This document shows, in pieces, positions 1,360 through 30,433 of a stretch of 34,337 bases of DNA (position 1 is the stretch's first letter; every line of letters begins with the position of its first letter). Both the position numbers and the translations under genes were made by a program. Below the pieces are notes generated by a model. That model ran no database searches, was not told the origin of the DNA, and was given only the letters and a program-made list of their open reading frames with translations. The stretch is taken from assembly GCA_017618275.1 (NCBI GenBank), contig JAFZUS010000106.1, positions 1 through 34,337 on the forward strand, written 5' to 3'. This DNA is from Prevotella sp. Its GTDB lineage: Bacteria > Bacteroidota > Bacteroidia > Bacteroidales > Bacteroidaceae.

Positions 1360-1456
1360 AAATCGTTCATTGCATGTAAATTTGTTGCAATGAACGATTT
1401 TTGTTAGTGTTTGAAACATAATTTATTGTATGTCTCAGGTTTTTGCCGTACTTTTG
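1360..1456 (+). promoter_or_regulatory. Fructan-regulon operator and promoter A, upstream of GH32-permease-fructokinase operon
   Basis: A perfect 15-bp inverted repeat has arms at 1360-1374 and 1386-1400 (11-bp spacer). The right arm contains half-site TGAAC at 1391, and a second half-site in TTTGAAACA (TGAAAC at 1412) follows 21 bp later. The Bacteroidetes -7 element TACTTTTG is at 1449-1456, 37 bp from the second half-site. The usual -33 TTTG is missing, which suits an activator-dependent promoter. The same arrangement recurs at five more places in this window. Confidence 0.8.
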
Positions 1457-5246: not shown

Positions 5247-5268
5247 TTGTTACATTTTTCGAAAAATG

Positions 5269-5300
5269 TTTGGCAGTCTCGTAAAAAAACACTATCTTTG
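5269..5300 (+). promoter_or_regulatory. Promoter of the first sensor-regulator
   Basis: A textbook Bacteroidetes promoter: -33 TTTG at 5269-5272, a 20-bp spacer, and -7 TATCTTTG at 5293-5300. It has no copy of the fructan operator, so basal expression is expected. The promoter of the second regulator (17828-17859) has the same spacing and a similar GAAAAAT lead-in. Confidence 0.75.
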
Positions 5301-5331
5301 CCATGAGATTACTAACAATAACATTAAACCC

Positions 5332-7479: not shown

Positions 7480-7486
7480 TTAACAA

Positions 7487-7584
7487 AAATCGTTCATTTC
7501 ATCGCAAATATGTTACATTGAAACAAATTTGGGGTGCAATGAACGAAATTTTAAATATTACAGCCACATTAGTTTGTACTTTTG
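7487..7584 (+). promoter_or_regulatory. Fructan-regulon operator and promoter upstream of SusC1
   Basis: The upstream inverted arm (AAATCGTTCATTTCA, 7487-7501) starts 8 bp after the regulator's stop. A degenerate half-site (TTACATTGAAAC, TGAAAC at 7519) and a strong one (TGCAATGAACG, TGAAC at 7540) are 21 bp apart, and the -7 element TACTTTTG lies at 7577-7584, again 37 bp further. No -33 TTTG is present. Compared with promoter A, the strong and weak half-sites are swapped. Confidence 0.78.
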
Positions 7585-7631
7585 CAGCAGCATTTAATTC
7601 ACAAGAGTACAAACAAATAAAAGATTCAACA

Positions 7632-10600
7632 ATGGAACAACTAAAGAAAACGTTTCTGAGTTTAGCACTTCTGTTTGTAAGTACAATAATGTACGCGCAA
7701 TCAGAGATTAGTGGTACCGTAGTCGATGCAACTGGCGAAACGGTAATTGGTGCCACAGTGATGGAGAAAGGAACCTCGAACGGTACAATTACCGATTTCG
7801 ACGGAAACTTCAAGATTAAAGTCGCAGCAGGAAAGACGCTTGTCTTCTCTTATATCGGCTTTGAGACACAGGAACTGCCCGCCCAGAATGGTATGCAGGT
7901 CACAATGAAAGACAATGCCAAGGAATTGGCAGAGGTTGTGGTAACAGGTTACCAGACGCAGCGTAAGGCCGACCTGACAGGCGCTGTTGCTGTGATGGAC
8001 ATGAAAGGCCCCATCAGCGAGAGTGATCCTAACATGCTGAACTCCATGCAGGGTAAATTGGCTGGTGTGGACATCGTCACCGATGCCGCTCCTGGTGGTG
8101 GTAGTTCAACGATTCGCGTTCGTGGTATGAGTACCGTGAATGCATGTGATCCTCTTTACGTCATTGATGGAGTAGCAACCAATGAAAACCTGAATTCTCT
8201 GAATGCTGCCGACATTGAAAGTATACAGGTATTGAAGGATGCTTCTTCTGCTTCTATCTATGGTAGCCGTGCCGCTAATGGTGTGATTATCATTACAACT
8301 AAGAAAGGTAAGGAAGGTAAGATGAATATCAATATCAACTATAATGCCGCATTGCAGACTGTAGCCAAGAAGTATGATGTCCTTTCCGCAGAGCAGTGGG
8401 GTCAGGCTTATTGGCAGGCAGCAGCCAACAACGGTATTGCTCCCACAGCAGCCCAGGCTCTCTATGGTAATGGTGCAACACCTCAACTCGTAAGTTCTGT
8501 CAATGGTATCAGTACAGCAAACACCAATTGGCAGGATCAGGTGTATAGTTCAGCATGGACACAGAACCTTTCTGCCAGCATCTCGAATGCTTCTGACAAA
8601 GGCAGTTATATGTTCTCTGGTAACTATATCAATCAGAATGGACTGATGGACCAGACGTTTTATAAGCGTCTTTCTGCTCGTGTGAACTCTACCTATAACT
8701 TTAATAAGTATGTACGCGTAGGTGAGAACCTGATGATTGCCAAGTGGGAAAACCGTGGTGCTGATGTCAATGGCGACCGTGGTATTCCTTATTCTGCTAT
8801 GCGTCAGCATCCTGCCATCCCTGTATATCAGGCAGAGGGCGTTTTCACTGATCCTGTTGCGATGCTTGGATCGGATATCGACAACCCTGTACAGACGCTT
8901 TATAACATGCGCGATAATAGCAACTCATCATGGCGTATCTTTGGTAATGCATACATTGACATTATGCCTATCAAGGGCTTGACCCTGAAGAGCAACATCG
9001 GTATTGAGCATGTGCAGTATCTTAACAAGACACTTACCCGTAACGTACGTGCCACTGACGATACCGCCAACCGTGCCGTCAGCAGCGGCTACGGCGAAGG
9101 CGACACTTGGACTTGGACGAACACAGCAAACTACATGTTTGATATTAATACCCAGCACCACTTCACTGTTCTGCTTGGCTCTGAGGCTATCAAGTATGTA
9201 TTCCAAGACCTGGCAGCAACACGTAAGGACTATGCTTTCGAGGATGCAGACTATATGCAGATCGGTTCTGGTTCTGGCACAATGACCAATGGTGGCGGCA
9301 AGCAGGAGTGGGCACTCTTCTCACTTTTCGGTAAGGTTGACTACAATTTCGCTGACCGTTACCTCTTCTCTGCTACGCTGCGTCGTGACCAGACATCTCG
9401 TTTGTCAAAAAACAATAATTCTGGTATATTCCCCGCCTTCTCTGGTGCCTGGCGTCTGAGCGAGGAGAAGTTCTGGCCTAAGAACAACATCATTGATAAT
9501 GTGAAGGTACGTCTGGCCTGGGGTCAGAATGGTAACTCTGCTATATCCAACAACTATGCTGCCTTCTCAACCTACGCCTACGATTTGGGCAATGGCGCTT
9601 ATGACCTGAATGGAACTAACACCAATGTAGTAAGTGGTATCAAGGTCGCTACAACAGGTAACCCAGACCTGAAGTGGGAGACCACCACTCAGACCAACCT
9701 CGGTATCGATGCTTACCTCTTTAATGGTGCCATTAGCCTCGGTCTCGATTACTATTGGAAGAATACCAAGGACATGATCACGATTCCTCCCGTGCTCTCC
9801 GTTGCTGGTGAGAATGCAGCCAAATATATGAACACTGGTGAGATGAAGAATCACGGCTTTGAGTTGAACCTCGGTTATCACTCTCCTCAGTATGGTGATT
9901 TCTCTTGGGACGGTAACTTCAATATGTCGATGTATCGCAACGAGTTGGTTCGTCTGAATGACGAGGTCAGCGTGATAGGCGGCGACTTCCGTCTGATTGA
10001 GGGACAGCCGATGGGAGTCTACTATGGTTATGTCGTAGATGGCATCTTCCAGGATGCTGATCAGGTTTCCAATCATGCTATTCAGGAAGGAAAGGGCGTT
10101 GGTCGTCTCATCTATCGTGATATCACTGGTGACGGAGTAATCGACGAAGCCGACCGTTGTATCATCGGCGATCCAAACCCTGACTTCGGCATGGGTCTCA
10201 CGCTGACAGCCAACTATAAGAACTGGTCGTTCTCTACTTTCTTCTCTGGTGAATTCGGTTTTGATATCTACAACGGAACTCGTAAGCAGTTGGAATTCAT
10301 GACATACGGCAACCTCTATACAAACCGTGGTATTGACGTTCTGAATGCATGGACACCAGAGAATACAGGTGCTTCAATCCCTGCTCTGACAACTGTTGAT
10401 GATAATAACGAGACACGTATGTCAACATACTTTGTTGAAGACGGTTCTTATCTGAAGTGTAAGTATATCAAGTTAGGCTATAAGTTCGACCAGAGTTGGA
10501 TGAAGACAATCGGTGTTTCCTCACTCAATCTCTATGCTCAATTGGAAAATGTATTTACCATTACAAGTTACAAAGGACTTGATCCTGAAGTACCTCTCTC

Positions 10601-10679
10601 AACCTATGGTGCTCGTATTGACAACGGCCCATATCCTAGAGCACGTACATTCTCTGTTGGCTTAAACGTACAGTTCTAA
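7632..10679 (+). CDS. SusC1: TonB-dependent outer-membrane fructo-oligosaccharide transporter
   Basis: This 1015-residue SusC/RagA protein has a signal peptide (MEQLKKTFLSLALLFVSTIMYA), an N-terminal carboxypeptidase-regulatory-like beta-sandwich (residues about 24-100: EISGTVVDATGE, GTITDFDGNF, FSYIGFET), a TonB plug with the SusC signature (VLKDASSASIYGSRAANGVI), and a long beta barrel ending in a C-terminal phenylalanine (VGLNVQF). It forms the outer-membrane channel closed by the SusD partner encoded 46 bp downstream. The ATG at 7632 is chosen because it starts the signal peptide; in-frame codons before it lie inside the promoter. The first 230 bp of the coding region are nearly identical to SusC2 (19610), while the barrels diverge, suggesting duplication followed by specialisation for different fructan linkages or lengths. 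Fructan as ligand is inferred from neighbours. Confidence 0.93.
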   Translation: MEQLKKTFLSLALLFVSTIMYAQSEISGTVVDATGETVIGATVMEKGTSNGTITDFDGNFKIKVAAGKTLVFSYIGFETQELPAQNGMQVTMKDNAKELAEVVVTGYQTQRKADLTGAVAVMDMKGPISESDPNMLNSMQGKLAGVDIVTDAAPGGGSSTIRVRGMSTVNACDPLYVIDGVATNENLNSLNAADIESIQVLKDASSASIYGSRAANGVIIITTKKGKEGKMNININYNAALQTVAKKYDVLSAEQWGQAYWQAAANNGIAPTAAQALYGNGATPQLVSSVNGISTANTNWQDQVYSSAWTQNLSASISNASDKGSYMFSGNYINQNGLMDQTFYKRLSARVNSTYNFNKYVRVGENLMIAKWENRGADVNGDRGIPYSAMRQHPAIPVYQAEGVFTDPVAMLGSDIDNPVQTLYNMRDNSNSSWRIFGNAYIDIMPIKGLTLKSNIGIEHVQYLNKTLTRNVRATDDTANRAVSSGYGEGDTWTWTNTANYMFDINTQHHFTVLLGSEAIKYVFQDLAATRKDYAFEDADYMQIGSGSGTMTNGGGKQEWALFSLFGKVDYNFADRYLFSATLRRDQTSRLSKNNNSGIFPAFSGAWRLSEEKFWPKNNIIDNVKVRLAWGQNGNSAISNNYAAFSTYAYDLGNGAYDLNGTNTNVVSGIKVATTGNPDLKWETTTQTNLGIDAYLFNGAISLGLDYYWKNTKDMITIPPVLSVAGENAAKYMNTGEMKNHGFELNLGYHSPQYGDFSWDGNFNMSMYRNELVRLNDEVSVIGGDFRLIEGQPMGVYYGYVVDGIFQDADQVSNHAIQEGKGVGRLIYRDITGDGVIDEADRCIIGDPNPDFGMGLTLTANYKNWSFSTFFSGEFGFDIYNGTRKQLEFMTYGNLYTNRGIDVLNAWTPENTGASIPALTTVDDNNETRMSTYFVEDGSYLKCKYIKLGYKFDQSWMKTIGVSSLNLYAQLENVFTITSYKGLDPEVPLSTYGARIDNGPYPRARTFSVGLNVQF

Positions 10680-17594: not shown

Positions 17595-17691
17595 AAATCG
17601 TTCATTGCTATCAAATATGTTGCAGTGAACGATTTTTGTTAATCTTTGAAACATAACTTATCGATGTCAAGGGTAATTTACTATACCTTTG
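17595..17691 (+). promoter_or_regulatory. Fructan-regulon operator and promoter C, driving no protein gene
   Basis: Inverted arm AAATCGTTCATTGC (17595-17608), half-sites TGCAGTGAACGATTT (TGAAC at 17626) and TTTGAAACA (TGAAAC at 17647) 21 bp apart, and -7 TACCTTTG at 17684-17691, 37 bp further. It is the full form of the operator as in promoter A. Downstream there is only a short sequence ending in a strong terminator hairpin, then the independent promoter of the second regulator. Confidence 0.8.
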
Positions 17692-17775
17692 CATCAGATT
17701 AAGATTCATACATAATTGGTTAATTGTTAGGTTAGAAAAAACGGCGCGGCTCGTGATGAGTCGCGCCGTTTTTGA
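17692..17775 (+). ncRNA. Predicted small RNA 1 of the fructan regulon
   Basis: Transcription from promoter C should start near 17697 and end in a 12-bp GC-rich hairpin (17741-17752 with 17758-17769, 5-nt loop) followed by five Ts, giving an RNA of about 75 nt. No start codon with a usable frame exists in it. The 5' part (CAGATTAAGATTCATACA) and the hairpin are shared with a second locus at 28561-28648 that has the same promoter, while the middle (around GTTAATTGTTAG) is partly conserved and single-stranded, a plausible pairing region. Alternatives are a leftover leader of a lost operon or a plain terminator; two conserved copies behind the same regulated promoter favour an RNA. Confidence 0.6.
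17741..17773 (+). terminator. GC-rich terminator hairpin of predicted small RNA 1
   Basis: Stem 17741-17752/17758-17769 with loop GTGAT, preceded by six As and followed by five Ts, so it could terminate in both directions. It also isolates the second regulator from upstream transcription. Confidence 0.85.
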
Positions 17776-17827
17776 TGTTCCCACATTGTGGATAATTCGT
17801 TCACTACAAGGATTATTTCTTGAAAAA

Positions 17828-17859
17828 TTTGGCTATCTCATAAAAAATGCATACCTTTG
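17828..17859 (+). promoter_or_regulatory. Promoter of the second sensor-regulator
   Basis: -33 TTTG at 17828-17831, 20-bp spacer, -7 TACCTTTG at 17852-17859. Preceded by GAAAAAT as in the first regulator's promoter. No fructan operator. Confidence 0.75.
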
Positions 17860-17887
17860 CCGTAATTATTGCTAATCAGGAAAAAAT

Positions 17888-19432
17888 ATGCAGAAGACCA
17901 TAATCATAGTGATGGCATTGCTAGCAATGCTGACCTCTTGCTCAGAAAAAGAGAAGACTTACAAGATTGCCATATCACAGTGTGGCTCTGGTAGATGGCG
18001 TGACAAGGTAAACAGCGAAATGCTGGCAGCCCAGCATCTATATGAGCAAAATGTGAAAGTTGATGTGGTAGAGGCTCATGATAACACAGAGAGACAAATC
18101 AGGCAGATTGATAGTCTGGCCAATACTGATATAGACCTGCTGGTGGTGGCTCCTAATGAGGCGGCTCCTGTATCAGAAGCCATCGCTAAGGTCAAGAAGA
18201 AGGGTATTCCTATAATATATTTCGACCGTAAGGCTGAGACAGAGAACTATACTGCTTTTATAGGAGGAAATAATATAGAGGCTGGAAAGGCTATGGCTTA
18301 CTATGCATTAAGTCTTATTGATGAGTTTCATGCCAGTAGACACAAGCCAAAAGTGGTGGAAATCACAGGTGCCATGTCCTCTTCTCCTGCTCAAGAGCGT
18401 CACGAGGGATTCCTCAGCGTGATGAAAGAGCATGGGAATTTGGAATACATCTACAAGGAGGCTGATTGGTCATCGGATAAAGCTTGCCTGATTACTGAGG
18501 AACAAATTGACTCTGAGCAAATGCCAGACATCATTTTCTGCCATAATGATGGTATGGCAACTGGTGTTTATAAAGCCGTTGTTGGAAAAGGCGTTGAGGG
18601 AAAGATTATGATACTTGGTATTGACGGACTGCCAGACGAAGGCATTGAATATGTGCAGTTGGGGCATCAGATAGGTTCCTATGTCTATCCTACTCATGGT
18701 GAGCGCATAGTAAAACTGGCTCTCGACATCCTGACAGGCCATCCCTACGAGCGCGATAACGAGTTGCAAGGAATGATGGTAACACCAAGAAATGCCGATC
18801 TGATGGCGCTGAACACCAATGAACTTATCAGGCAGAATAAAGATCTAATGACGATACAAGATAAGTTGGAAGCCTATTTTGGCCTTTACAACACACAACG
18901 GAAGGTGTTGATAGGTAGTTTCATCGCCATTATCTTGTTAATAGTGGCGTTTGTTATGATGTGGCGCGCCTATATTCAGACACGCAAGGTTATTCGTCAG
19001 CGCCAGACCCTGAACGAAGAAGAGACATTATTCTATACCAATGCTGATAATAGGAAGTTGCGTCAGATATTCGAGCCAACAAAAGAAAATACCCCTGCTC
19101 CCCGTTCGCAGGATACGATCTTTGCGGAAACGCTGAATGAGGCAATCCTAAAGAATATGAGTAACCCCAACCTGAAGATGGATGATCTTGGAGACGAAAT
19201 GGGTCTGAGTCGCGTGCAGTTATATAGAAAGGTAAAGGCTATCACCGGTCTTACACCCGTGGAACTGCTCAGGCAGATGCGTCTGCAACGAGGTTACGCC
19301 CTACTGCAAAGCACCAACAAAACTGTTAATGAGATAGCGTACGAAGTTGGTTTTGGTACACCAGGCTACTTCTCTACCTGTTTCAAGAAGCAATTTGGTA
19401 AATACCCCACGGATGTAAGGGCAGATATATAA
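17888..19432 (+). CDS. Minimal transmembrane sensor-regulator: periplasmic sugar-binding domain, one membrane helix, AraC DNA-binding domain
   Basis: The 514-residue protein starts with a short signal/anchor carrying a lipobox-like LTSC, then a type-1 periplasmic-binding domain (residues about 23-330; KIAISQCGSGRWRD, DLLVVAPNE, IIYFDRKAE, SPAQERHEGF, SYVYPTHGE) clearly homologous to that of the first regulator. A membrane helix lies near residues 339-361, then only about 50 residues of linker, and a C-terminal AraC domain (about 415-510). Histidine-kinase, ATPase and receiver domains are all absent, so it would act as a one-component membrane transcription factor. Its first recognition region (GLSRVQLYRKVKAITG) is identical to that of the first regulator except for one residue, so both should read the same operator. 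It has its own promoter and terminator. There is no frameshift or scar. Confidence 0.9.
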   Translation: MQKTIIIVMALLAMLTSCSEKEKTYKIAISQCGSGRWRDKVNSEMLAAQHLYEQNVKVDVVEAHDNTERQIRQIDSLANTDIDLLVVAPNEAAPVSEAIAKVKKKGIPIIYFDRKAETENYTAFIGGNNIEAGKAMAYYALSLIDEFHASRHKPKVVEITGAMSSSPAQERHEGFLSVMKEHGNLEYIYKEADWSSDKACLITEEQIDSEQMPDIIFCHNDGMATGVYKAVVGKGVEGKIMILGIDGLPDEGIEYVQLGHQIGSYVYPTHGERIVKLALDILTGHPYERDNELQGMMVTPRNADLMALNTNELIRQNKDLMTIQDKLEAYFGLYNTQRKVLIGSFIAIILLIVAFVMMWRAYIQTRKVIRQRQTLNEEETLFYTNADNRKLRQIFEPTKENTPAPRSQDTIFAETLNEAILKNMSNPNLKMDDLGDEMGLSRVQLYRKVKAITGLTPVELLRQMRLQRGYALLQSTNKTVNEIAYEVGFGTPGYFSTCFKKQFGKYPTDVRADI

Positions 19433-19449
19433 CGTCTGCCCTTTATTTA
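19417..19449 (+). terminator. Terminator overlapping the stop codon of the second regulator
   Basis: Nine-bp perfect stem (19417-19425 with 19435-19443) with the TAA stop in the loop, followed by TTTATTTAT. It ends the monocistronic regulator transcript before the SusC2 promoter. Confidence 0.8.
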
Positions 19450-19489
19450 TGCATGATGTCAACAAAATGAACATAATAGTCGAGATTTG

Positions 19490-19560
19490 TTTCATGTATC
19501 ATTTTTACTTGCCTGTGAACGATAATTTTAAGTATTAAGACTAATATAATAGTACTTTTG
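19490..19560 (+). promoter_or_regulatory. Fructan-regulon operator and promoter upstream of SusC2
   Basis: A strong proximal half-site (TGTGAACGAT, TGAAC at 19516) lies 37 bp before the -7 element TACTTTTG at 19553-19560. The distal half-site 21 bp upstream (19495) is degenerate (CATGTATCATTTTT). An additional TGAAC-like copy is at 19468. The upstream inverted arm of promoters A, C and E is not recognisable. No -33 TTTG. Confidence 0.68.
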
Positions 19561-19609
19561 CAGCAGAAAGTAATTCACAAGAGTACTAATCAAATTTAAA
19601 AGTTCAACA

Positions 19610-22600
19610 ATGGAACAACTGAAAAAACTTTTTCTAAGTTTGTTTGCTCTCCTTTCGAGTACTGTAATGTACGCGCAATCAGAGATTAGTGGTACCGTGG
19701 TCGACGCAACTGGCGAAATGGTAATTGGTGCCACGATTATGGAAAAGGGAACATCGAACGGTACGATTACTGATTTCGATGGTAACTTCAAGTTAAAGGT
19801 AGAGGCAGGAAAAAACCTCGTCATCTCTTACATCGGTTATCAGACAGTGGAACTACCTGCTGAAAATGGTATGAAAGTTACACTGAAAGAGGACTCAGAA
19901 GTGCTGCAGGAAGTGGTGGTGACTGGTTATACCACCCAACGCAAGGCCGATCTGACAGGTGCTATCTCAACGGTAAGCGTTGATGAAATGGCGAAACAGA
20001 ACGAGAACAACCCGATGAAAGCGCTTCAGGGTCGTGTGCCTGGCATGAATATTCAGGCAGATGGTAACCCTTCGGGTGCTGCAACAGTCCGTATCCGTGG
20101 TATCGGTACACTGAACGACAATGATCCGCTGTATATCATTGATGGTGTACCTACGAAGGCTGGCATGCATGAATTGAACGGAAACGACATTGAGAGCATC
20201 CAGGTGTTGAAGGATGCGGCCTCAGCCAGTATCTATGGTTCACGCGCTGCCAACGGTGTGATCATCATCACCACCAAGAAGGGTAAGGACGGCAAGGTGA
20301 AGGTGAACTTCGATGGTAGCATTGCCACCTCTTTCTATACGAATAAGATCGAGACTATGAATGCCAGCGAGTGGGGACGTGCCTACTGGCAGGCAAGCGT
20401 GAACGACGGCATAAACCCCAGCAACAATAATCTGGGCTATAACTATGACTGGAGTTACGATGCCAACGGCAATCCTGTTCTGAACAAAATGACCATGAAC
20501 ATGTTCCTTGACGAAAACGCCTCTGTACGTGCAGGTGATACCGATTGGTTTAATGAAATAACACGTACAGGTGTGGTACAGCAGTATAATGTATCTATCA
20601 GCAATGGCTCTGAAAAAGGTAGTTCATTCTTTTCTCTGGGCTACTATGACAATCAAGGTACTATCAAGGACAGTTGGTTCAATCGTCTCTCAGGTCGTGC
20701 CAATGCTGACTACAAACTATTTGATGGCAATGTGGTTATTGGGGAGAACTTCACCATCAACCGTACAAAAGGAGTCGATGCTCCCGGTGGCGTACTTGAG
20801 CACGCTCTGGAGTTCAACCCCAACTTCCCTATCTATGCCGAGAATGGTAAGTATGCTCAGGCTCTTGGTGCCTACTCTGAGCGCGAGAATCCACTGAGCA
20901 TGATAGACAATGCGAAGGATAACGAATACACCCAGTGGCGTATGTTTGGCGATGTCCACCTGAGCATCACCCCATTCAAGAACTTTATGGTTCGCACCAC
21001 CTTAGGTATGGACTATACCCAAAAGGAACAGCGCTTCTTTACCTATCCTATTGCCAATGGTAAAGTAATGCGTACAGACTCTGCTGTTGAAAGTAAGCAG
21101 GAACACACCATGCGTTGGATGTGGAACGCTATAGCCACCTATAACCTTGAGATTGGCAAGCATCGCGGAGATGCCATGATCGGTACTGAGGTTAACCGCA
21201 TGAATTATAAGATGAACAGCGCCAAGCGTTACGAACTGGCTATTCTGAATACCGACTATATGTGGCCATCGGCTGGTGCAGGCAAACAACTGGCAGAAGG
21301 CTTTGGCGAGGGATTCAGTCTCGTTTCGTTCTTCGGCAAGGTGAACTACACCTTTGATGACAAGTACTTGGCATCATTTACCATCCGTCGTGACGGTTCA
21401 AGCCGTTTTGGTTCAAGTAACCAATATGGTACATTCCCTTCTGTTTCTGCAGGATGGCGCATCTCACAGGAGAAGTTCATGGAGTCGACAAAGGGTTGGC
21501 TTGATAACTTGAAGTTGCGTTACTCATGGGGACAGACTGGTAACCAGGAGATTTCAAACACTGCACGCTATACACTTTATAAGTCTGTCGTTTCTACAGG
21601 TCTTTGGGGCAGCGGACAGGCTGGTTCCTCTTACGATATCGCTGGTAAGAATGGTGGTTACGACCTTGCTAACGGATACGTTCGCAACCAGCGTGGTAAC
21701 GATGATATTAAGTGGGAAACAACCACACAGCACAACATCGGTGTTGATTTCGCTCTTCTGAGAAATGAGATCTACGGTAGTTTCGACTGGTTCAACAAAA
21801 AGACCACAGATATTCTTCTGTTCATGGAAGGTATCGCAGCCATGGGTGAAGGCTCTGGTCAGTGGATCAACGCTGGTGAGGTCAAGAACAATGGTTGGGA
21901 ATTGACCGTTGGCTATCGTCACCGTCTGCCTAACGATTTCTCATGGGATATCAGTGGAAACATCAGTAAATATGTGAACGAGATTACCAAGTTGCCTGAG
22001 ACAGTGGCTGCTAATGGTAAGTATGGTGGCAACGGTGTCAAGAGCGTTGTAGGTCACCCCATGTTCTCACAGGTTGGTTACATCTATGATGGCATCTTCA
22101 AAAGTCAGGAAGAAGTAGACAATCACGCTACGCAGGAAGGTGCTGGCCTGGGACGTATCCGCTATAAGGACCTGAATGGTGATGGTCGCATTACAGAGGA
22201 AGATCAGGATTGGATTTACGATCCGACACCCGCATTCACATGGGGTTTGAACATCTACCTGCAGTACAAGAACTGGGACATGACCATGTTCTGGCAGGGC
22301 GTTCAGGGCGTTGATGTAGATTGTCGCGGCTATAAGTCACAGACAGACTTCTGGGCAAACTCTGCCATCAATGTTCCTTACCTGAACAAGGGTATCCGTG
22401 TGCTCGACGCTTGGAGTCCTGCTAACCCTGGTAGCGATATTCCTGCACTCACTACTTCTGATACGAATAACGAGGGGCGTGTATCTTCTTATTATATTGA
22501 GAACGGTTCCTATGCTAAGTTACGTACTATACAGTTGGGCTACAACATGCCTAAGAGTTTCACAGACAAACTTCATCTTGATCGTATCCGTCTCTATGCT

Positions 22601-22720
22601 TCGGCTCAGAACCTGCTAACCATCAAGAGCGGCAAGTTTACTGGTGCTGACCCAGAGAACCCAGGATTCAACTATCCTATCCCCCTCAATCTTACATTCG
22701 GACTGAACGTTTCGTTCTAA
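19610..22720 (+). CDS. SusC2: TonB-dependent outer-membrane fructo-oligosaccharide transporter
   Basis: The 1036-residue SusC/RagA protein has a signal peptide (MEQLKKLFLSLFALLSSTVMYA), a carboxypeptidase-regulatory-like sandwich (EISGTVVDATGEMVIG, DFDGNFKLKV), a TonB plug with VLKDAASASIYGSRAANGVI, and a barrel ending LTFGLNVSF. The N-terminal domain matches SusC1 almost residue for residue and even the leader sequence TAATTCACAAGAGTAC is shared, but the barrel loops differ widely, so the two transporters probably take different fructans or sizes. SusD2 follows after 35 bp. It heads a five-gene operon with two surface lipoproteins and a GH32 enzyme, the closest match in layout to the BT1763-BT1760 part of the B. 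thetaiotaomicron locus. Confidence 0.93.
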   Translation: MEQLKKLFLSLFALLSSTVMYAQSEISGTVVDATGEMVIGATIMEKGTSNGTITDFDGNFKLKVEAGKNLVISYIGYQTVELPAENGMKVTLKEDSEVLQEVVVTGYTTQRKADLTGAISTVSVDEMAKQNENNPMKALQGRVPGMNIQADGNPSGAATVRIRGIGTLNDNDPLYIIDGVPTKAGMHELNGNDIESIQVLKDAASASIYGSRAANGVIIITTKKGKDGKVKVNFDGSIATSFYTNKIETMNASEWGRAYWQASVNDGINPSNNNLGYNYDWSYDANGNPVLNKMTMNMFLDENASVRAGDTDWFNEITRTGVVQQYNVSISNGSEKGSSFFSLGYYDNQGTIKDSWFNRLSGRANADYKLFDGNVVIGENFTINRTKGVDAPGGVLEHALEFNPNFPIYAENGKYAQALGAYSERENPLSMIDNAKDNEYTQWRMFGDVHLSITPFKNFMVRTTLGMDYTQKEQRFFTYPIANGKVMRTDSAVESKQEHTMRWMWNAIATYNLEIGKHRGDAMIGTEVNRMNYKMNSAKRYELAILNTDYMWPSAGAGKQLAEGFGEGFSLVSFFGKVNYTFDDKYLASFTIRRDGSSRFGSSNQYGTFPSVSAGWRISQEKFMESTKGWLDNLKLRYSWGQTGNQEISNTARYTLYKSVVSTGLWGSGQAGSSYDIAGKNGGYDLANGYVRNQRGNDDIKWETTTQHNIGVDFALLRNEIYGSFDWFNKKTTDILLFMEGIAAMGEGSGQWINAGEVKNNGWELTVGYRHRLPNDFSWDISGNISKYVNEITKLPETVAANGKYGGNGVKSVVGHPMFSQVGYIYDGIFKSQEEVDNHATQEGAGLGRIRYKDLNGDGRITEEDQDWIYDPTPAFTWGLNIYLQYKNWDMTMFWQGVQGVDVDCRGYKSQTDFWANSAINVPYLNKGIRVLDAWSPANPGSDIPALTTSDTNNEGRVSSYYIENGSYAKLRTIQLGYNMPKSFTDKLHLDRIRLYASAQNLLTIKSGKFTGADPENPGFNYPIPLNLTFGLNVSF

Positions 22721-22753
22721 AAGTAAAAAGGTAAAAAAGTAAAAAGGTAAAAG
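22720..22753 (+). repeat. GTAAAA leader repeat before SusD2
   Basis: Tandem GTAAAAAG-type repeat immediately before the SusD2 start, matching the tract in front of SusD1. Likely an A-rich leader or a dispersed intergenic repeat. Confidence 0.5.
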
Positions 22754-22755
22754 AT

Positions 22756-24498
22756 ATGAAAACAAAGATCAATAAAATAGGACGTTGGATTTTGTGCGCA
22801 GCACTTCTCACCTCTTGTAGTGATTTTCTGGAGGAGCAGGTGCCACAGGCTACACTGACCCAGGACGAGGTGAAGAATCCTGAGTATATCGACAATGTGC
22901 TGATCTCAGCATACGCCGGTCTGGTTTCGATTGAAGATATGAATGCTTCGTTCTCACTTTGGAACTATGATACCCGTTCAGACGATGCCTATGTAGGCGG
23001 ATCAGATTTCTCTGATGGTGAACCATTCCACAGACTGGAGAAGAGTAGTGGTGTGATGACCACCGACTGGCCCTTCAGTTCTATCTGGAATAGATTCTAT
23101 AATTATCTTTCACGTGTCAGCCTGTCGCTCGATATTTTGGCCAGCGCTGATCAGGACAACGTTACTATTCAGCAACGTACTGCAGAGATGAAGTTCCTCC
23201 GTGCTTATGGTCACTTCCAGTTGAAGCGCCTGTTCAAGAAGATTCCGTTCGTCAACAAGCCCAATATGCAAGAAGAGGACTACAACAACCTCTCGAACAC
23301 AGAATATTCTAATGATGAAGGTTGGCAGCAGATCATTAATGACCTGGAAGATGCTTACGCAGTCCTTCCTGCCGTACAGACTGAGAAGGGTCGCCCCACA
23401 AAGGCTGCCTGCGCCGCATTCCTTGCCAAGGTATACCTCTATAAGGCCTATCGTCAGGACGATGCAAACTCTAATCAGGTTACGGCCATCAATGCTGAGG
23501 ATCTCCAGAAGGTTATAGACTATACTAATCCCGCCATTTACAATGGTTATGGTCTGGAGCCAGACTTGCACAACAACTTCCGTCCTGAAGAGCAGTATGA
23601 GAATGGTAAGGAGAGTCTTTGGGCCATCCAGTATTCAAGGAACGACGGTACAGTCTATGGCAACCTGAATTTCTCTTATCGACTGATAGTTCCTTGTATT
23701 CCAAAGGTACACGATTCTGGTTGTGATTTCTATAAGCCATCCCATAATCTAGTGGATGCTTATCGTACCAATAGCGATGGCCTGCCTATGCTTGATGACT
23801 TTGCAGCAGTTGACTACACTGTAGGAAGCAATCAGACTGTTGATCCCCGTCTGTTCGTAACGGTAGGTGTACCAGGAACGCCATATATGTTCAATCCTAG
23901 TTTTATGATGGCAGAGACCAATGCATGGAGCCGTTCAGGTGGTACATTCGGATACTTTGTATCTCTGAAACAGAATGTTGACCCCTCATTGACAGACAGT
24001 TACTTATATCTGTGCGACTCTCAGTGGGCCAGTTCAATGAATCGCATTGTGTTCCGCTATGCAGATGTTCTGCTGATGCGTGCTGAGGCTATGGCACAGT
24101 TGGGACAGACTAATGAAGCAATGGCGCAGGTTAATCTGGTTCGCAGTCGTGCAGCAGGTATGATAACCAGTAGCGTGGTTTCAAACTATCCAACCAAGTA
24201 TGGTGTACACTATGCAGTAGGCAAGTACAACGGTTCATATTCCAAGGATGAGGCTATGAAGATTATTAAGATGGAACGCCGTCTGGAGTTGGCTATGGAA
24301 AGTGAGCGTTTCTTTGATCTGGTCCGCTGGGGCGACGCAGCCACTGTGCTGAACAAGTTCTATAGTAGCGAAAGCGATAAGATGAACTTCCTGAGTGGTT
24401 CGCAGTTTACTGCCAACAAGAACGAGTATCTGCCTGTGCCATTCGAACAGATGGCAGCATCTAATGGGCATTATACGCAAAACTGCGGACAGTGGTAA
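22756..24498 (+). CDS. SusD2: surface glycan-binding lipoprotein, partner of SusC2
   Basis: The 580-residue protein has a lipoprotein signal (MKTKINKIGRWILCAALLTSC, Cys21) and a SusD/RagB body: N-terminal SAYAGL helix region, FLRAYGHFQLKRLFKKIPF (TPR-like helices), and the C-terminal signature KMERRLELAMESERFFDLVRWGD followed by YLPVPFEQMAASNG. It would close the SusC2 channel and bind incoming fructan oligosaccharide on the cell surface. It differs considerably from SusD1 outside these conserved parts, in line with the two systems having different ligands. It is separated from the next gene by 38 bp containing repeated AATTGATAATT motifs. Confidence 0.93.
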   Translation: MKTKINKIGRWILCAALLTSCSDFLEEQVPQATLTQDEVKNPEYIDNVLISAYAGLVSIEDMNASFSLWNYDTRSDDAYVGGSDFSDGEPFHRLEKSSGVMTTDWPFSSIWNRFYNYLSRVSLSLDILASADQDNVTIQQRTAEMKFLRAYGHFQLKRLFKKIPFVNKPNMQEEDYNNLSNTEYSNDEGWQQIINDLEDAYAVLPAVQTEKGRPTKAACAAFLAKVYLYKAYRQDDANSNQVTAINAEDLQKVIDYTNPAIYNGYGLEPDLHNNFRPEEQYENGKESLWAIQYSRNDGTVYGNLNFSYRLIVPCIPKVHDSGCDFYKPSHNLVDAYRTNSDGLPMLDDFAAVDYTVGSNQTVDPRLFVTVGVPGTPYMFNPSFMMAETNAWSRSGGTFGYFVSLKQNVDPSLTDSYLYLCDSQWASSMNRIVFRYADVLLMRAEAMAQLGQTNEAMAQVNLVRSRAAGMITSSVVSNYPTKYGVHYAVGKYNGSYSKDEAMKIIKMERRLELAMESERFFDLVRWGDAATVLNKFYSSESDKMNFLSGSQFTANKNEYLPVPFEQMAASNGHYTQNCGQW

Positions 24499-24536
24499 GA
24501 TTTTAATTGATAATTAATAATTGAAAATTGATAATT

Positions 24537-25928
24537 ATGAAAACAAATATATTAAGCATCATCTGTGCAATTTGCATTATCTGCGGATTCTCTGCCTGCA
24601 GTGATGATCATACGGGCAGTATCGACGTAAGCGGAGAATGCCTCGTTGAGAAGTTTGTACTGAATGGTCAGTACGAAGGTACTATCAACACAGAGAAACG
24701 GCTGGTAAAGGTCAAGGTTCCCGTGGACTTCGATCAAAAGAACAATATGGAAATAACCAGTCTCTCTGTATCGTCAGGTGCAAAGACCAATATGAAGGTT
24801 GGCGATCATATTAATTTTGATGGAGACCGTACACTGCACATTTCCAATGGAGATCTTGTTATGGACTATCAAGTAAGTGTACGTAATGACGAGGCTCTGA
24901 TGTCGCTCTTTATCCTGGAAGGTGTAAAAGGTGCTATCAACCAGCAGGACAAGACTGTCACCGTCAGTGTGATGGCAAATAGCGGTATTGACCTCAGTAA
25001 CGCAACTTTCGAGGTGGAGTACAGTGAGGACGCTACTTGTAGCCCGGCAAGTGGCACAAAGGGAAACTTCACGGAGCCATTCCAGATCACGCTGAATGAT
25101 AATACTGCAACAACAGTTTATACCGTATATGTCACTCTGATTGAGGATCCTATCGCCCTATTTGTTGGCGAGGCAGAGAACATAGAACTGCTGAACGACG
25201 AAGAGAAGGCTGCAGCCAAGTGGTTGACGGGTAACATTGCCAGTGCTGCTTACGCATCATGGAGCGATGTGGCCAGTGGCAATATCTCACTCGAAAAGTG
25301 TAAACTGGTATTCTTTCACCGTCATTGCTCATCATACGGCAACTATAACGGTTTCGCTGAGGCTGAGAGTGGTGCCATGACGGCTCTTCCGAAGATGAAG
25401 GAACTCTGGCAGCGCGGCGTAGGCTTCGTGTTAGGACGTTCGGCTGTAAACTATGCAATTGCTTTGGGTGCTATGCCTGAGGATGCTTATCCCAACAATG
25501 TCTGGGGTGGCGGAGGCGGTGAAGGCTCCGACCTGATGGGCGATGATCCTTGGCACTTCTATGCCTACGACATCACACACCCGTTGTGGAAGAACCTCAA
25601 GACCTATCCAGGTGCAGCCGATAACGCTGTTTACACACTCGATAAGGATTACACCATTTGTAACACTACATCGCAGTATGGATTCTGGGATACTTACGGT
25701 GGTGGCAAGGATGCTATGGAGGCAAAGACTGGTGCCCGTGCTCTTGGTGGCGACAATAGCGTGTCATCTTGGGAACTGAAGGGCGCAAACGGTGAGTTTG
25801 GCAAGGGTGGTATCATCTGCCTGGGTTCTGGACTCTTCGACTGGAACTCTCCTACGCCATACACATCAAACTATCACGACAATATGGGCACCATCCTGCT
25901 CAATGCATTCGATTATCTAACCAAATAA
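24537..25928 (+). CDS. Surface fructan-binding lipoprotein, single DUF4960-like domain
   Basis: From ATG 24537 the protein has 463 residues with a lipoprotein signal (lipobox FSAC). Two Ig-like domains follow (residues about 30-110 and 115-200; the latter ends VYTVYVTLIED), then a C-terminal domain of about 260 residues homologous to the duplicated domain of the SusC1-operon lipoprotein: LNDEEKAAAKWL, FFHRHCSSYGNYNG, NNVWGGGGGEGSDLMGDDPWHFYAYDI, QYGFWDTYG, ELKGANGEFGKGGIICLGSGLFDWN. By position it corresponds to the surface glycan-binding protein of a SusCD operon. The two Ig-like modules would act as a stalk holding the terminal domain away from the membrane. A start 9 bp upstream is possible only with TTG and is unlikely. 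It overlaps no neighbour; the GH32 gene begins 11 bp later. Confidence 0.85.
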   Translation: MKTNILSIICAICIICGFSACSDDHTGSIDVSGECLVEKFVLNGQYEGTINTEKRLVKVKVPVDFDQKNNMEITSLSVSSGAKTNMKVGDHINFDGDRTLHISNGDLVMDYQVSVRNDEALMSLFILEGVKGAINQQDKTVTVSVMANSGIDLSNATFEVEYSEDATCSPASGTKGNFTEPFQITLNDNTATTVYTVYVTLIEDPIALFVGEAENIELLNDEEKAAAKWLTGNIASAAYASWSDVASGNISLEKCKLVFFHRHCSSYGNYNGFAEAESGAMTALPKMKELWQRGVGFVLGRSAVNYAIALGAMPEDAYPNNVWGGGGGEGSDLMGDDPWHFYAYDITHPLWKNLKTYPGAADNAVYTLDKDYTICNTTSQYGFWDTYGGGKDAMEAKTGARALGGDNSVSSWELKGANGEFGKGGIICLGSGLFDWNSPTPYTSNYHDNMGTILLNAFDYLTK

Positions 25929-25939
25929 AACAGAAGATT

Positions 25940-27538
25940 ATGAAGACAATGATATATTCAGTATTCGCACTCATGCTGTCAGCCTCTGTGCTGACGGCGT
26001 GCAGCGACGACGAGTTCAGCGGCGACCCCGCTAAGGACTGGAACGGCACTGCCACATTCTTTGCTCCTACAGATGCTCAGAGTTTCGGTACATTCTATAA
26101 GCCCGCAGTAGGACGTGTAGGCGATCCCATGCCATTCTTCGATCAGAAAACTGACGACTTTAAGGTGCTCTACCTTCAGGAGTTCGAAAACAATATGAGC
26201 CATCGCTTCCATCCCATCTGGGGCGTATCGACCAAAGACGGAGCCAACTACGAGTCACTGGGTGAGATTTTGCCTTTCGGCAGCAATGACTATCAGCAGG
26301 ACGCTGCTCTGGGTACGGGTTGTGCTTACGAGAAAGACGGTACCTATTATATCTACTATACAGGTCACAATGGTAACTGCAAGAACCGTGAGGTGGTGAT
26401 GCGTGCTACATCTACCGATTTTAAGACCTGGACAAAGGACGAACTGTGGACGCTCAATGGTCCTGACTTCGGTTACTCTGGCAATGATTTCCGCGATCCG
26501 CAGATCTTCGTTGCTGACGACAACCTCTACCACATGGTTATCTCTACCTATCCTGTTAATGGAGGCGATCCTGTATTCGCAGAGTTCAAGTCGAGCGATA
26601 TGAAGAGCTGGGAGCACGTAGGCCGTATCCGTATGATCTGGGACCGCATGCTGGAGTGTCCTGATATCTTCAAGATGGGCAACTATTGGTATCTTGTTTA
26701 CAGCGAGAGTTTCCGCACCAGCTGGAGCCGTAAGGTAAAGTATATGGTAGCCTCTAGCTACGACGAACTGAAGAGCTGTCTTAATGATGGACCTAAGTGG
26801 CCAAATGATGGTCATGAGGGCGTGCTTGATAGCCGTGCTTTCTATGCGGCTAAGACAGCCTCTAACGGCACAGACCGTTACATCTGGGGATGGTGTCCGT
26901 TCCGTTCGGGTGCTGACATCCACGAGAAGAATATCAATGTAGGTGCAGGTGATGGTAATGAGCCTAACTGGAGTGGCGCACTGGTATGTCACAAGATTGT
27001 CCAGCATACAGATGGAACGCTTACACTTGGTGCAGTGCCTGCTATGGCTGCTAAGTATAGCAATACAACTAATGCTACTGTCATGGAGTCTAGCGGCTAT
27101 AACGGTGGCACACTGAGTGGCGACGGTGCATACGTGCTCTACAGCCGTCTGGGCAATTGCAACCATATATCATTCACCGTGAAGACCTCAAACAATTGGG
27201 ATAAATTCGGTGTTTCGTTTGTTCGTGGTACAGACTCAAAGAAATATTATACGATGGTCGTGAATCCTGAGTGGGAAGACGGTCGCAAGGTGAACTTCGA
27301 GCAGGAAGGTGAGGAAGGCAAAGGCTTTATTGAGGGTGCAGACGGTTACAACTTCCAGCGTCCTACAGACAATGTCTACAACATCGACATCTATACCGAC
27401 AACAGTGTGATGGTCATGTACATCAATGATGTCTGCGCTTATACCAATCGCATCTATGGTATACAGAAAAATTGCTGGAGTATTAACAACTATGGTGGCA
27501 GTATCACCGTCAGCGACGTAAAGGTTAATCAGTATTAA
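25940..27538 (+). CDS. Surface GH32 lipoprotein, endo-fructanase (levanase-like)
   Basis: The 532-residue protein has a lipoprotein signal (MKTMIYSVFALMLSASVLTAC, Cys21), so it is probably on the outer surface. The GH32 catalytic residues are placed in an atypical frame: VGDPMPFF with Asp62 in the nucleophile position instead of NDPNG, FRDPQ with Asp186, and LECPD with acid/base Glu239. A C-terminal beta-sandwich (about 370-532) follows. The GDPMPFF variant and lipidation agree with the endo-acting surface levanase type of B. thetaiotaomicron (BT1760), in the same operon position after the surface binding protein. It would cut the polymer into fragments for SusC2/D2. Linkage (beta-2,6 or beta-2,1) cannot be settled by eye. 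Confidence 0.87.
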   Translation: MKTMIYSVFALMLSASVLTACSDDEFSGDPAKDWNGTATFFAPTDAQSFGTFYKPAVGRVGDPMPFFDQKTDDFKVLYLQEFENNMSHRFHPIWGVSTKDGANYESLGEILPFGSNDYQQDAALGTGCAYEKDGTYYIYYTGHNGNCKNREVVMRATSTDFKTWTKDELWTLNGPDFGYSGNDFRDPQIFVADDNLYHMVISTYPVNGGDPVFAEFKSSDMKSWEHVGRIRMIWDRMLECPDIFKMGNYWYLVYSESFRTSWSRKVKYMVASSYDELKSCLNDGPKWPNDGHEGVLDSRAFYAAKTASNGTDRYIWGWCPFRSGADIHEKNINVGAGDGNEPNWSGALVCHKIVQHTDGTLTLGAVPAMAAKYSNTTNATVMESSGYNGGTLSGDGAYVLYSRLGNCNHISFTVKTSNNWDKFGVSFVRGTDSKKYYTMVVNPEWEDGRKVNFEQEGEEGKGFIEGADGYNFQRPTDNVYNIDIYTDNSVMVMYINDVCAYTNRIYGIQKNCWSINNYGGSITVSDVKVNQY

Positions 27539-27558
27539 TTATTAAAAAACAAAAGAAT

Positions 27559-28422
27559 ATGAAAAAGTTATTTTTATTCATTTTCCTGATGGCAACCACC
27601 ACTATTGTTTCTGCTACTGATCTGTGGGAAGGAACCCACGCAGTGAATTGGGACAACACACTGACTATCGAAGCCGCTAAGTTTGCTGATGCACAAGTCG
27701 GCCAGAAAATAGTCGTCGAGTTTACAAACGCTACGGGAGAGGTTATCGAACTTCATAGCAACGGAGGCATGCTGCCCGGTACACGCTACGAACACCACAT
27801 CTATGCCGACCAGAGTTCGATGGAGGTCTTCATCACCACGGGAATGCTTGCACGTCTGAAGGAATCTGGATTGGAAATCTGTGGCACTGGCTTTACGGCC
27901 ACCAAGGCATGGTATGGCGATGGTAAGGAGGGTGTAGACGACAACACAGTTTGGACAGGCTTTTTCTGGATGGACGAGTGGAGCACCTTAGAGTTGGCAA
28001 AGACCTCATTCGACGGCGTTAACTGGAGCGACTACAAGGCTATCCGTTTCTATTCAGAGGCAAATCGCACCAACTACGTCATCAATGTACTCACCAAATG
28101 GGGTGACGACGGCAAATTAGGCGACCAGAACACAATGACCATGACTAATGAGTACGCCGAACTCAGCCTTGAGAATATCGATATGGCTGCGAAACTGGCA
28201 GAAGTAGACAGGCTCATGGTTCAGTGTAACAAGGAAGACGGCGATCCTTTCAACTTTACTGCCATCGTACTCGTAAAGAAAGAAACTACAGGAATTCGTG
28301 ACCTTTCTGTTCAATCTTCATCAAGCACTGCTGATGTGGTGTACAACCTACAGGGATGTAAGGTTACAAAAGCCACTAAGGGTCTGTATATCGTCAATGG
28401 CAAAAAAATCATGATGAGATAG
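27559..28422 (+). CDS. Secreted protein of unknown function with Prevotella-type C-terminal tail
   Basis: The 287-residue protein has a signal peptide (MKKLFLFIFLMATTTIVSA) and no lipobox. Two beta-rich segments follow, roughly residues 20-115 (LWEGTHAVNWDNTLTIEA) and 125-245 (TVWTGFFWMDEWSTLELAK). They may be tandem carbohydrate-binding-like sandwiches: both start with a W-x-G or W-T-G motif. The last 40 residues (VVYNLQGCKV, ATKGLYIVNGKKIMMR) match the C-terminal tail found on many Prevotella secreted proteins, which resembles a type IX secretion sorting domain. It is last in the SusC2 operon, 20 bp after the GH32 gene. A fructan-binding or surface-attachment role is plausible but unproven. 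Confidence 0.75.
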   Translation: MKKLFLFIFLMATTTIVSATDLWEGTHAVNWDNTLTIEAAKFADAQVGQKIVVEFTNATGEVIELHSNGGMLPGTRYEHHIYADQSSMEVFITTGMLARLKESGLEICGTGFTATKAWYGDGKEGVDDNTVWTGFFWMDEWSTLELAKTSFDGVNWSDYKAIRFYSEANRTNYVINVLTKWGDDGKLGDQNTMTMTNEYAELSLENIDMAAKLAEVDRLMVQCNKEDGDPFNFTAIVLVKKETTGIRDLSVQSSSSTADVVYNLQGCKVTKATKGLYIVNGKKIMMR

Positions 28423-28463
28423 TAAGTTCATTTATCACTGAACTCATAGGAGTTGTGTGTAAG

Positions 28464-28560
28464 AAATCGTTCATTGCTAACAATTATGTTGCAGTGAACG
28501 ATTTTTATTTGTCTTTGAAACAAATCTTATCGGATGCAAATGGAAATCGTTGTATCTTTG
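28464..28560 (+). promoter_or_regulatory. Fructan-regulon operator and promoter E, driving no protein gene
   Basis: Inverted arm AAATCGTTCATTGC (28464-28477), half-sites TGCAGTGAACGATTT (TGAAC at 28495) and TTTGAAACA (TGAAAC at 28516), 21 bp apart, and -7 TATCTTTG at 28553-28560, 37 bp further. It closely matches promoter C over the operator. The next gene to the right is on the opposite strand. Confidence 0.8.
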
Positions 28561-28650
28561 CACCAGATTTAGATTCATACAAAGTTTTTGTTAATTAGTT
28601 AGTAATTGGTTTTGGCAAAGGCGCGGCTCGTAATGAGTCGCGCCTTACCT
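28561..28650 (+). ncRNA. Predicted small RNA 2 of the fructan regulon
   Basis: Downstream of promoter E lies a paralogue of small RNA 1. The 5' part (CAGATTTAGATTCATACA) differs by one base over 18, the middle keeps GTTAATTAGTTAG, and the hairpin (28618-28629 with 28635-28646) is the same except for one loop base and the outer pair. The expected RNA is about 80-85 nt. The T-run after the hairpin is poor (TTACC), so termination may be less efficient than at copy 1. No coding potential is seen. The convergent VapE gene ends at 28770, leaving no protein target for this promoter. Confidence 0.55.
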
Positions 28651-28714
28651 ATGTAAAAATTCCTCATCTCTCCCTAAATCTCTTGGAACGCCTTTGTACA
28701 ATGGGGTTGAGCAC

Positions 28715-28756
28715 GGGAGGGATATTTCCAATCCCTCCCATATCTCTCCCGTCAAC
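28715..28756. repeat. GGGAGGGAT-type inverted repeats 3' of the VapE gene
   Basis: A hairpin with 9-bp perfect arms (28715-28723 with 28731-28739) is followed by a 22-bp segment (28735-28756) whose exact reverse complement occurs at 30284-30305 on the other side of the VapE gene. Similar CATCTCTCCC is at 28665-28674. Confidence 0.7.
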
Positions 28757-28769
28757 ACTCCCGTCCGAT

Positions 28770-30044: not shown

Positions 30045-30134
30045 ATCTTATAATATCAATGGTTAATCCTTCTCCTTCAGGTCACTTCCTTGTAGCAATA
30101 TTGGCGCGCTTTCCACAGCGTGCTTTTCAAGGTG

Positions 30135-30388: not shown

Positions 30389-30433
30389 AGGAACTTTTTT
30401 GAAAAGTTCTTTTGTTTCGTTACATAGACACTC

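Follow-up and report, generated by a model that had tools for sequence, protein, structure and literature searches.

Glycan ranking in the Bacteroidota of gut and rumen is understood mainly at the level of transcription. Here we describe a pair of similarly built elements in the fructan polysaccharide-utilisation locus (PUL) of a rumen-type Prevotella and compare them with the small RNAs (sRNAs) described for related bacteria. The window, that is, the whole stretch of DNA analysed (contig JAFZUS010000106.1, 34,337 nucleotides, nt), is identified as such a locus by Pfam domain calls on its open reading frames (ORFs). With moderate confidence, we favour as the best explanation of the elements a pair of fructan-induced antisense sRNAs that would repress competing loci.

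By description, an sRNA of a related species stands close to the twins: SrcF, a colonisation sRNA of Segatella copri, is reportedly controlled by fructans in its expression and is reported to regulate nutrient-uptake genes (El Mouali et al. 2024). In a passage of a review, loss of SrcF is described as disrupting nutrient-uptake genes, PULs among them (PMC11814227), and S. copri DSM 18205 is presented elsewhere with an inulin locus that holds SusC/D, GH32, MFS and fructokinase genes (PMC11784079). It is possible, if somewhat doubtful in our judgement, that the twins are SrcF or its direct orthologues. Its reported fructan control and its effects on nutrient-uptake genes speak for it, but no record titled Segatella copri came out of our promoter-type scan (described below), whose exact pattern could miss S. 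copri. Such an identity would be compatible with the explanation preferred here and would lower its novelty.

FopS of Bacteroides thetaiotaomicron comprises 14 paralogues, sRNAs that carry a terminator and a single-stranded seed, are bound by the protein RbpB and repress the translation of susC at start regions, an action antagonised by RbpB (PMC11697453, in its passages on FopS). The same source introduces, in shorter passages, GibS of B. thetaiotaomicron, which is induced by glycans containing N-acetylglucosamine (GlcNAc) and represses a glycoside hydrolase messenger RNA (mRNA) via start-region pairing, and DonS of Bacteroides fragilis, which is encoded at a PUL and divergent to it (PMC11697453). 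Compared by description, GibS, a glycan-induced sRNA with start-region pairing, resembles what is predicted for the twins and differs in its inducer, GlcNAc glycans; DonS is like them in being PUL-encoded, whereas the twins lie co-directionally between operons, neither divergent nor antisense.

The likeness to FopS goes further. Both have a single-stranded 5' part followed by a 3' terminator hairpin, several paralogues per genome, and pairing with susC start regions, shown for FopS and predicted for the twins; a AGAUUUAAG-like stretch also recalls FopS, and with the FopS 5' sequence the AGAUU(U)AAG-like stretch alone is shared. In contrast, the promoter of the twins carries a fructan operator, and they begin with CAGAUU.AGAUUCAUACA and not with GUGUUUUUCAUAGUAUUAGAUUUAAGGUUAA. 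The FopS family RF04319 (gathering cut-off 56 bits) had no match in the window, and even with E values of up to 5 allowed none appeared in L002 and L004, the loci of the twins. The twins are thus ruled out as FopS, there being no covariance match and no conserved FopS 5' sequence with its R1 seed; this comparison used FopS sequences as seen in genomes. The home genome (G000) has three separate FopS genes of its own, at C118:115164-115229, C47:1021-1087 and C12:17772-17844. No RRM_1 gene (the RbpB domain) was found in this genome, which is 92% complete. Among 60 genomes of the genus, FopS was present in 56 and RRM_1 proteins in 3, so that FopS mostly occurs there without its known partner. Pairing of the twins with FopS, as a sponge, was set aside on grounds of composition, both being C-poor.

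The kind of regulator is known, and the earlier note on this DNA, which called a pair of this kind unfamiliar, went too far: FopS acts on susC starts, and SrcF is reportedly under fructan control. What is new is that the RNA is wired to an operator, that its gene is duplicated and that the cognate SusC apparently escapes. In the literature, judged on titles and abstract openings, no operator-driven fructan sRNA of Prevotella was found described.

The twin elements and their family

The two elements (17595-17773 and 28464-28646) have the same build: an operator and a TAnnTTTG box are followed by the sequence CAGATT.AGATTCATACA, then by a linker that contains GTTAATT(A)GTTAG and finally by a GGCGCGGCTCGTnATGAGTCGCGCC hairpin. 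The near-identity of 5' end and hairpin claimed in the earlier note was confirmed: in the window, AGATTCATACA occurs exactly twice (17702 and 28571), and so does GGCGCGGCTCGTnATGAGTCGCGCC of the shared 25-nt hairpin, with 0 occurrences in shuffles. Likewise, the varied middle does keep GTTAATT(A)GTTAG in both linkers, and copy 1 does end in five Ts (17769-17773). With 2 mismatches allowed, AGATTCATACA was found 9 times against 13.9 expected; the motif alone is weak and has its meaning because of its position. In the home assembly (3.6 Mb), the 19-nt core of the hairpin lies at both twin sites and, at 3 mismatches, at a non-palindromic third, and a pattern of promoter plus 5' end had no third copy within 3 mismatches. 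A general terminator repeat is ruled out for this assembly, since the close hairpin form occurs only twice there. The hairpin alone is not diagnostic; similar ones were seen elsewhere in other genomes (G013:C86, G025:C58:18788). Both copies fold into a single-stranded 5' part and a terminator-type hairpin, that of copy 2 without a T-run, and both are intergenic, overlap no called gene and share the + strand with the genes of the PUL. Copy 1 is followed by a Pfam-supported gene at 17888 (+), copy 2 by one at 28770-30044 (-).

The operator is a full inverted repeat, AAATCGTTCATTGC-N13-GCArTGAACGATTT, which a pattern search of the window found in front of both elements and 0 times in shuffles. 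Six operator-bearing promoters had been claimed earlier; two or three of them hold a full operator, the third being that of the GH32a-MFS-fructokinase operon, and the other three (about 7481-7555, 14514- and 19490-) have half, split or degenerate copies. Operators also stand in front of GH32 and SusC genes in many loci fetched from other genomes. The repeat is probably the binding site of the fructan hybrid two-component regulator encoded in the window, and this protein is probably an activator working on the operators, as suggested by its position and by BT1754, a fructan regulator. Behind both operators lies a -7 box that fits TAnnTTTG, the promoter box of Bacteroidota, and from the GAACGAT arm to the end of this box the distance is 65 nt in 50 of 51 sites, under a scan pattern in which part of this distance could take five values and the remainder could vary freely within 60 nt. 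A repeat with a T-run could also terminate the upstream operon, yet GH32 promoters (L113, L120, L122 and L143, among the 50 stretches described below) have the repeat at the same, near-constant distance from the -7 box, and a role as mere terminator was rejected.

A DNA search with copy 1 matched 47 of 150 genomes of the genus, mostly via the operator and sometimes via the 5' end or hairpin alone. The fetched loci, themselves chosen by similarity to copy 1, held 54 operator sites, about 20 of them RNA-type by eye. The covariance-model search proposed in the earlier note was run with a model, R1, built from seven copies, the twins included (87.7 bits for sRNA 1, 87.2 for sRNA 2). It matched 158 of 398 genus genomes at E 0.01 and 26 of 398 at 46 bits or more; many of the weak matches are TTAG-rich stretches before unrelated hairpins and were not taken as family. 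Among the best 29 R1 loci, an operator was found by script in 15 and by eye in 6 more (L081, L083, L084, L085, L090 and L094), where it was in part recognised from a single arm or from a variant; the remaining 8 were left out of the RNA family. Of 201 genomes across the taxonomic family, 4 matched at E 1e-5, the home genome included, in 3 of 30 genera.

Furthermore, a scan for the promoter type (operator arm plus TTATC element) covered 84,980 species, each represented by one named genome, and yielded 50 stretches, whose records bear the names Prevotella, Xylanibacter, or uncultured Prevotellaceae, Bacteroidaceae or Bacteroidales. Upon inspection, 45 held a non-coding RNA of the twin build, 4 were the GH32 genes named above, and 1 was truncated (L136). 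Because the pattern, drawn from the fetched loci, had been chosen for separating RNA-type from gene-type promoters, the count of 45 in 50 speaks for a real and widespread family but does not give the share of operators that drive an RNA. One of the 45 RNAs has a different hairpin (L140) and another a broken one (L145). Cultured hosts among the records are Prevotella ruminicola KHT3 and Xylanibacter ruminicola D31d and Ga6B6. The duplication noted in the window recurs, and the twin arrangement is therefore not unique: RUG12938, RUG116, RUG473, RUG10713 and RUG14503 have two RNA copies each, although one copy in RUG473 (L129) and one in RUG14503 (L138) are leader-like and the other in RUG14503 is the hairpin-broken L145.

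Scan and window together gave 47 loci with 36 distinct RNAs. In the 38 RNAs whose linker could be delimited, it is composed of 1.1% C, 23% G, 47% T and 30% A, with 3.4 TTAG per RNA, and GTTAG or TTAGTTA is present in 35 of the 36 distinct RNAs. In the hairpin, 12 of 13 pairs change on both sides, with 91 double-change cells against 18.6 in shuffles (0 of 500 as high), in an alignment of 77 matches that were fitted to the model, reverse-strand and weak ones included, and are thus biased toward structure.

Of the 47 loci, 16 are followed by an opposite-strand ORF (counting the next ORF of 90 codons or more) and 22 by a same-strand ORF with a TAnnTTTG box in between; in 3 the next ORF is off the contig, and 6 have another arrangement. 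Since such a box can arise by chance, the 16 opposite-strand loci, several of which are near-copies, are the stronger evidence for a gene of its own. The longest ATG frame has 39 codons or fewer in 44 of the 47 loci; the exceptions have 49, 61 (L100) and 80 (L141) codons, the frames of L100 and L141 beginning at the hairpin, and no long frame, as of a small protein, is common to the RNAs.

These data bear on the alternative that each element acts in cis, as a 5' leader or attenuator of the gene that follows it, in which the hairpin would terminate or stall transcription unless a signal intervenes. Copy 1 and the RNAs of L116, L128 and L146 do lie upstream of the same AraC-fusion regulator, as does a TTAG-rich RNA in genome G138 before a gene with matching first residues. 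In L129 and L138 an MFS gene follows 36-38 nt past the hairpin with no promoter box between, and L029 (1500-1800) is a GTTAG-rich leader without a terminator, with one operator arm, before an MFS gene. These three loci are possibly cis-acting relatives of the sRNA. However, copy 2 and 15 of the other 45 RNAs face an opposite-strand ORF, a separate TAnnTTTG box precedes the AraC-fusion gene in the window, and the downstream genes are of many kinds; a conserved same-strand downstream gene without its own promoter was not seen, 2 of the 47 loci (L129 and L138) being leader-like. The comparison with other genomes, in which degraded leaders of protein-coding operons were to refute the earlier note, thus mostly failed to refute it, with L129, L138 and L029 as the leader-like cases. 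Because the hairpin covaries while the downstream neighbour changes, the elements are most likely RNA genes rather than degraded leaders, and we consider a general leader function unlikely. These comparisons lend good support to a pair of genes for a conserved and structured non-coding RNA that are wired to the fructan operator.

Predicted pairing with SusC start regions

The reverse complement of the 5' half resembles a Bacteroidota start region (..CTAACTAATTAAC..GTATGAATCT..). Intermolecular folding (duplexfold) was therefore computed against positions -50 to +25 of 269 home-genome genes, that is, those of the window plus 378 kb picked to include SusC contigs. In these predictions, copy 1 outdid all 40 of its own dinucleotide shuffles in binding to start regions, and copy 2 outdid 35 of 40. 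The 14 SusC/TonB starts stood out from the rest, with mean z values of -1.47 versus -0.46 (uncorrected p 0.009) and -1.52 versus -0.18 (uncorrected p 0.002); the 5' end of FopS, taken through the same procedure as a control, had no SusC/TonB preference (p 0.37). The effect was gone on the antisense strand and in gene interiors of the home genome, where 23, 9, 20 and 22 of 24 shuffles reached the observed mean.

The predicted target that ranks first for copy 2 and third for copy 1 is a SusC whose locus also encodes two GH43 enzymes and a hybrid regulator of the Reg_prop type, at -33.2 kcal/mol for copy 2 (0 of 1000 sRNA shuffles as good) and -23.0 for copy 1 (1 of 1000). As a single target, this SusC is suggestive. 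The fructan SusC starts of the home genome reached -7 to -12 kcal/mol, no better than shuffles (501 to 933 of 1000 as good).

Predicted binding beyond that of shuffles recurred in four other genomes with RNAs of their own, tested on SusC/TonB starts only: G221 (27 starts), G018 (6), G315 (7) and G269 (28), together 68 starts that remained of 70 loci fetched out of 157 matches, those of G315 and G018 being the best-scoring matches only. The observed SusC/TonB mean was reached by 0 of 100, 100, 100 and 40 shuffles in G221, G018, G315 and G269, respectively. SusC proteins with the N-terminus of the GH43-locus SusC (MWNFKSLQKPL), apparent orthologues of it, scored z -2.8 in G221, -3.7 in G018 and -2.6 in G269; the 7 starts of G315 included no such protein. 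For the SusC next to the sRNA locus, z was -0.8, -1.1, -0.2 and +1.4 in the four genomes. On the antisense strand, 8 of 60 shuffles in G221 and 27 of 60 in G315 reached the observed value, a clean control in these two genomes. Furthermore, CTAAC occurs in 16 of the 68 SusC/TonB leaders versus 14 of the 269 genes of the home sample.

A model of fructan priority and its weighing

In our model, the twins would be paralogous genes of one sRNA family in the fructan regulon of rumen-type Prevotella and Xylanibacter. The fructan-sensing hybrid two-component regulator would bind the inverted repeat at a fixed upstream distance and thereby give rise to a short transcript of about 80-190 nt, in which the 5' end is followed by a nearly C-free single-stranded part, and a hairpin at the 3' side probably serves to terminate and stabilise the RNA. 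The 5' half may then pair in trans with translation initiation regions, the UUCAUAC element with GUAUGAA at the start codon and the GUUAGUUAAUU element with a UUAACUAAC-type leader just upstream of it. Pairing would keep SusC-type uptake genes in other polysaccharide loci, above all the GH43 locus, from being translated, and the fructan susC genes, which lack good pairing sites, would escape.

The RNA design, the operator linkage, the covarying hairpin, the changing neighbours and the statistical complementarity come from sequence comparison; transcription, the regulator, pairing in vivo, repression and the role in fructan priority we infer as parts of the best explanation. Trans-acting repression of other PULs is the best reading of support that is repeated and purely computed. 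The sRNA interpretation put forward in the earlier note is therefore supported in part: a conserved, structured, non-coding RNA gene lies behind a fructan-gene operator, and its single-stranded part is complementary to SusC starts. If true, an sRNA of the fructan regulon that reaches other SusC messages would be a simple wiring for glycan ranking, letting the cell favour fructan. Assets for pursuing it are that a candidate target can be named, that the gene is duplicated and that cultured strains (P. ruminicola KHT3, X. ruminicola D31d and Ga6B6) have the RNA gene, and covariance model and operator pattern make the family findable in other genomes.

Several points weigh against this explanation. 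Apart from the leader-like loci, the family is patchy when a score of at least 46 bits is required, close relatives contribute many near-copies to the 47 loci, the hairpin of copy 2 has no T-run, and a strict test, a hairpin at once before four Ts, was passed by 20 of the 45 RNAs. The scan pattern favoured the RNA type and narrowed the spacing beforehand. As for targets, the 269-gene background was partly picked for its SusC contigs, duplexfold ignores target structure, the p-values are uncorrected, and SusC 1 of the window, called with another start, was grouped with the non-SusC genes. The GH43-locus SusC is the best of 269, and an equally good target was found for 15 of 40 shuffles of copy 1 and 2 of 40 of copy 2. 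The fructan SusC reached -20.7 kcal/mol in G221 and G018 and is weak there only relative to shuffles, and the antisense control in G018 (6 starts) also beat all shuffles (0 of 60).

It is also imaginable that the RNA binds a protein, such as an RNA chaperone or translation factor, or another sRNA, and acts as a fructan-induced sponge and not on mRNA. C-poor, repeat-rich linkers of widely varying length with a repeating motif would suit a single-strand-binding protein, and FopS is bound by RbpB (PMC11697453, in part). The scarcity of RRM_1, absent from the calls in the home genome and present in 3 of 60 genus genomes, speaks against RbpB itself, although another protein could serve; moreover, complementarity prefers the sense strand, start regions and SusC, and we regard a sponge as improbable. 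Very improbable is a functionless transcript from operator, promoter and terminator left behind by fructan operons that lost their protein genes: copy 2 without a T-run, the broken hairpin of L145 and a linker-and-hairpin remnant without a leader of its own in G119:C110 would fit, but the same design recurs in 36 distinct RNAs, with compensatory hairpin changes, near-constant operator spacing and two copies in several genomes.

Returning to the antisense sRNA model, we advance a wider version of it tentatively, leaning slightly against it ourselves: a PUL regulator may directly drive nearly C-free antisense RNAs that mimic the complement of SusC starts, so that competing PULs would be shut down and its own spared, and glycan priority would be executed by an sRNA inside the preferred locus. 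Further RNAs of the genus, here called type-2 and collected with a second model, R2, might be the same device with another promoter and signal.

Related RNAs and gene content of the window

Most copies of the type-2 RNAs have a similar ATCAGATTTAAGATTCATACA 5' end, with a TTAG-rich linker. They differ from the twins in their hairpin, which is of the GGGCTCGCAGGGATGCGGGCCC type; of 10 inspected, 8 have GTCGC motifs upstream and 9 contain the stretch TTTTTCAT internally. With R2, 15 matches were obtained, up to 4 per genome, in 5 of 150 genomes; they include the 5 sequences from which R2 was made, and none lies in the home genome. In G138 (L277, operator at about 1501), a variant operator (TCAATG), a TTAG-rich RNA with an unrelated hairpin, a promoter box and a gene follow each other in the order of window copy 1; the first residues of this gene match the AraC-fusion regulator. 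Other Rfam matches in relatives (Thr_leader, STnc40, STnc250, mir-278, mir-3167) were below gathering score and discarded as chance. In the window, no Rfam family reached its gathering score, and no transfer RNA was found.

Table 1. Positions of the twin RNA genes, their promoters, the neighbouring genes and the type-2 loci (window coordinates unless a locus is named).
Feature	Position	Strand	Basis or remark
Operator 1, AAATCGTTCATTGC-N13-GCAGTGAACGATTT	17595..17635	+	inverted repeat; same repeat before GH32/SusC genes of other genomes
Promoter -7 box of sRNA 1, TACCTTTG	17684..17691	+	fits TAnnTTTG
sRNA 1, about 80 nt, start estimated	17694..17773	+	5' end CAGATTAAGATTCATACA, then linker and a terminator hairpin that closes with T5
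Terminator hairpin of sRNA 1	17736..17773	+	fold, covariation
Operator 2, AAATCGTTCATTGC-N13-GCAGTGAACGATTT	28464..28504	+	inverted repeat
Promoter -7 box of sRNA 2, TATCTTTG	28553..28560	+	fits TAnnTTTG
sRNA 2, about 84 nt or longer, start estimated	28563..28646	+	CAGATTTAGATTCATACA 5' end, linker GTTAATTAGTTAGTAATTGG, hairpin
Hairpin of sRNA 2	28617..28646	+	fold, covariation
Same operator before GH32a-MFS-fructokinase operon	1360..1400	+	3 mismatches to search pattern
GH32, MFS and PfkB genes (GH32a-MFS-fructokinase operon)	1411-5202	+	domains; operator at 1360-1400 in front
Hybrid two-component regulator	5266..7479	+	periplasmic sugar-binding domain, HisKA, response regulator, AraC-type DNA-binding domain
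SusC/D system 1	7476-12411		domains
Fructan SusC 1	7476..10679	+	probable start downstream of 7476, at ATGGAACAA; no predicted target
Two further GH32 enzymes	start 14608 and 25940		domains
AraC-fusion regulator, downstream of sRNA 1	17888..19432	+	own TAnnTTTG box in front
SusC/D system 2	19610-24498		domains
Fructan SusC 2	19610..22720	+	no predicted target
Type-2 loci	L041:1212-1355, L042:1770-1915, L045:1787-1894 (-), L047:1671-1805, L048:215-353 (-), L284-L293		

The AraC-fusion regulator, between sRNA 1 and SusC 2, joins a periplasmic sugar-binding domain to an AraC-type DNA-binding domain, with neither kinase nor receiver. In the GH32 enzyme at 14608-16974, a concanavalin-like lectin domain is accompanied by a type I dockerin repeat at the C-terminus. 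Beyond the second RNA, at 28701-30393 and 31446-32312, GGGAGGGAT-type direct and inverted repeats surround a VapE-domain gene, followed by a BRO-N gene; repeats, VapE and BRO-N next to the fructan locus are signs of a mobile element.

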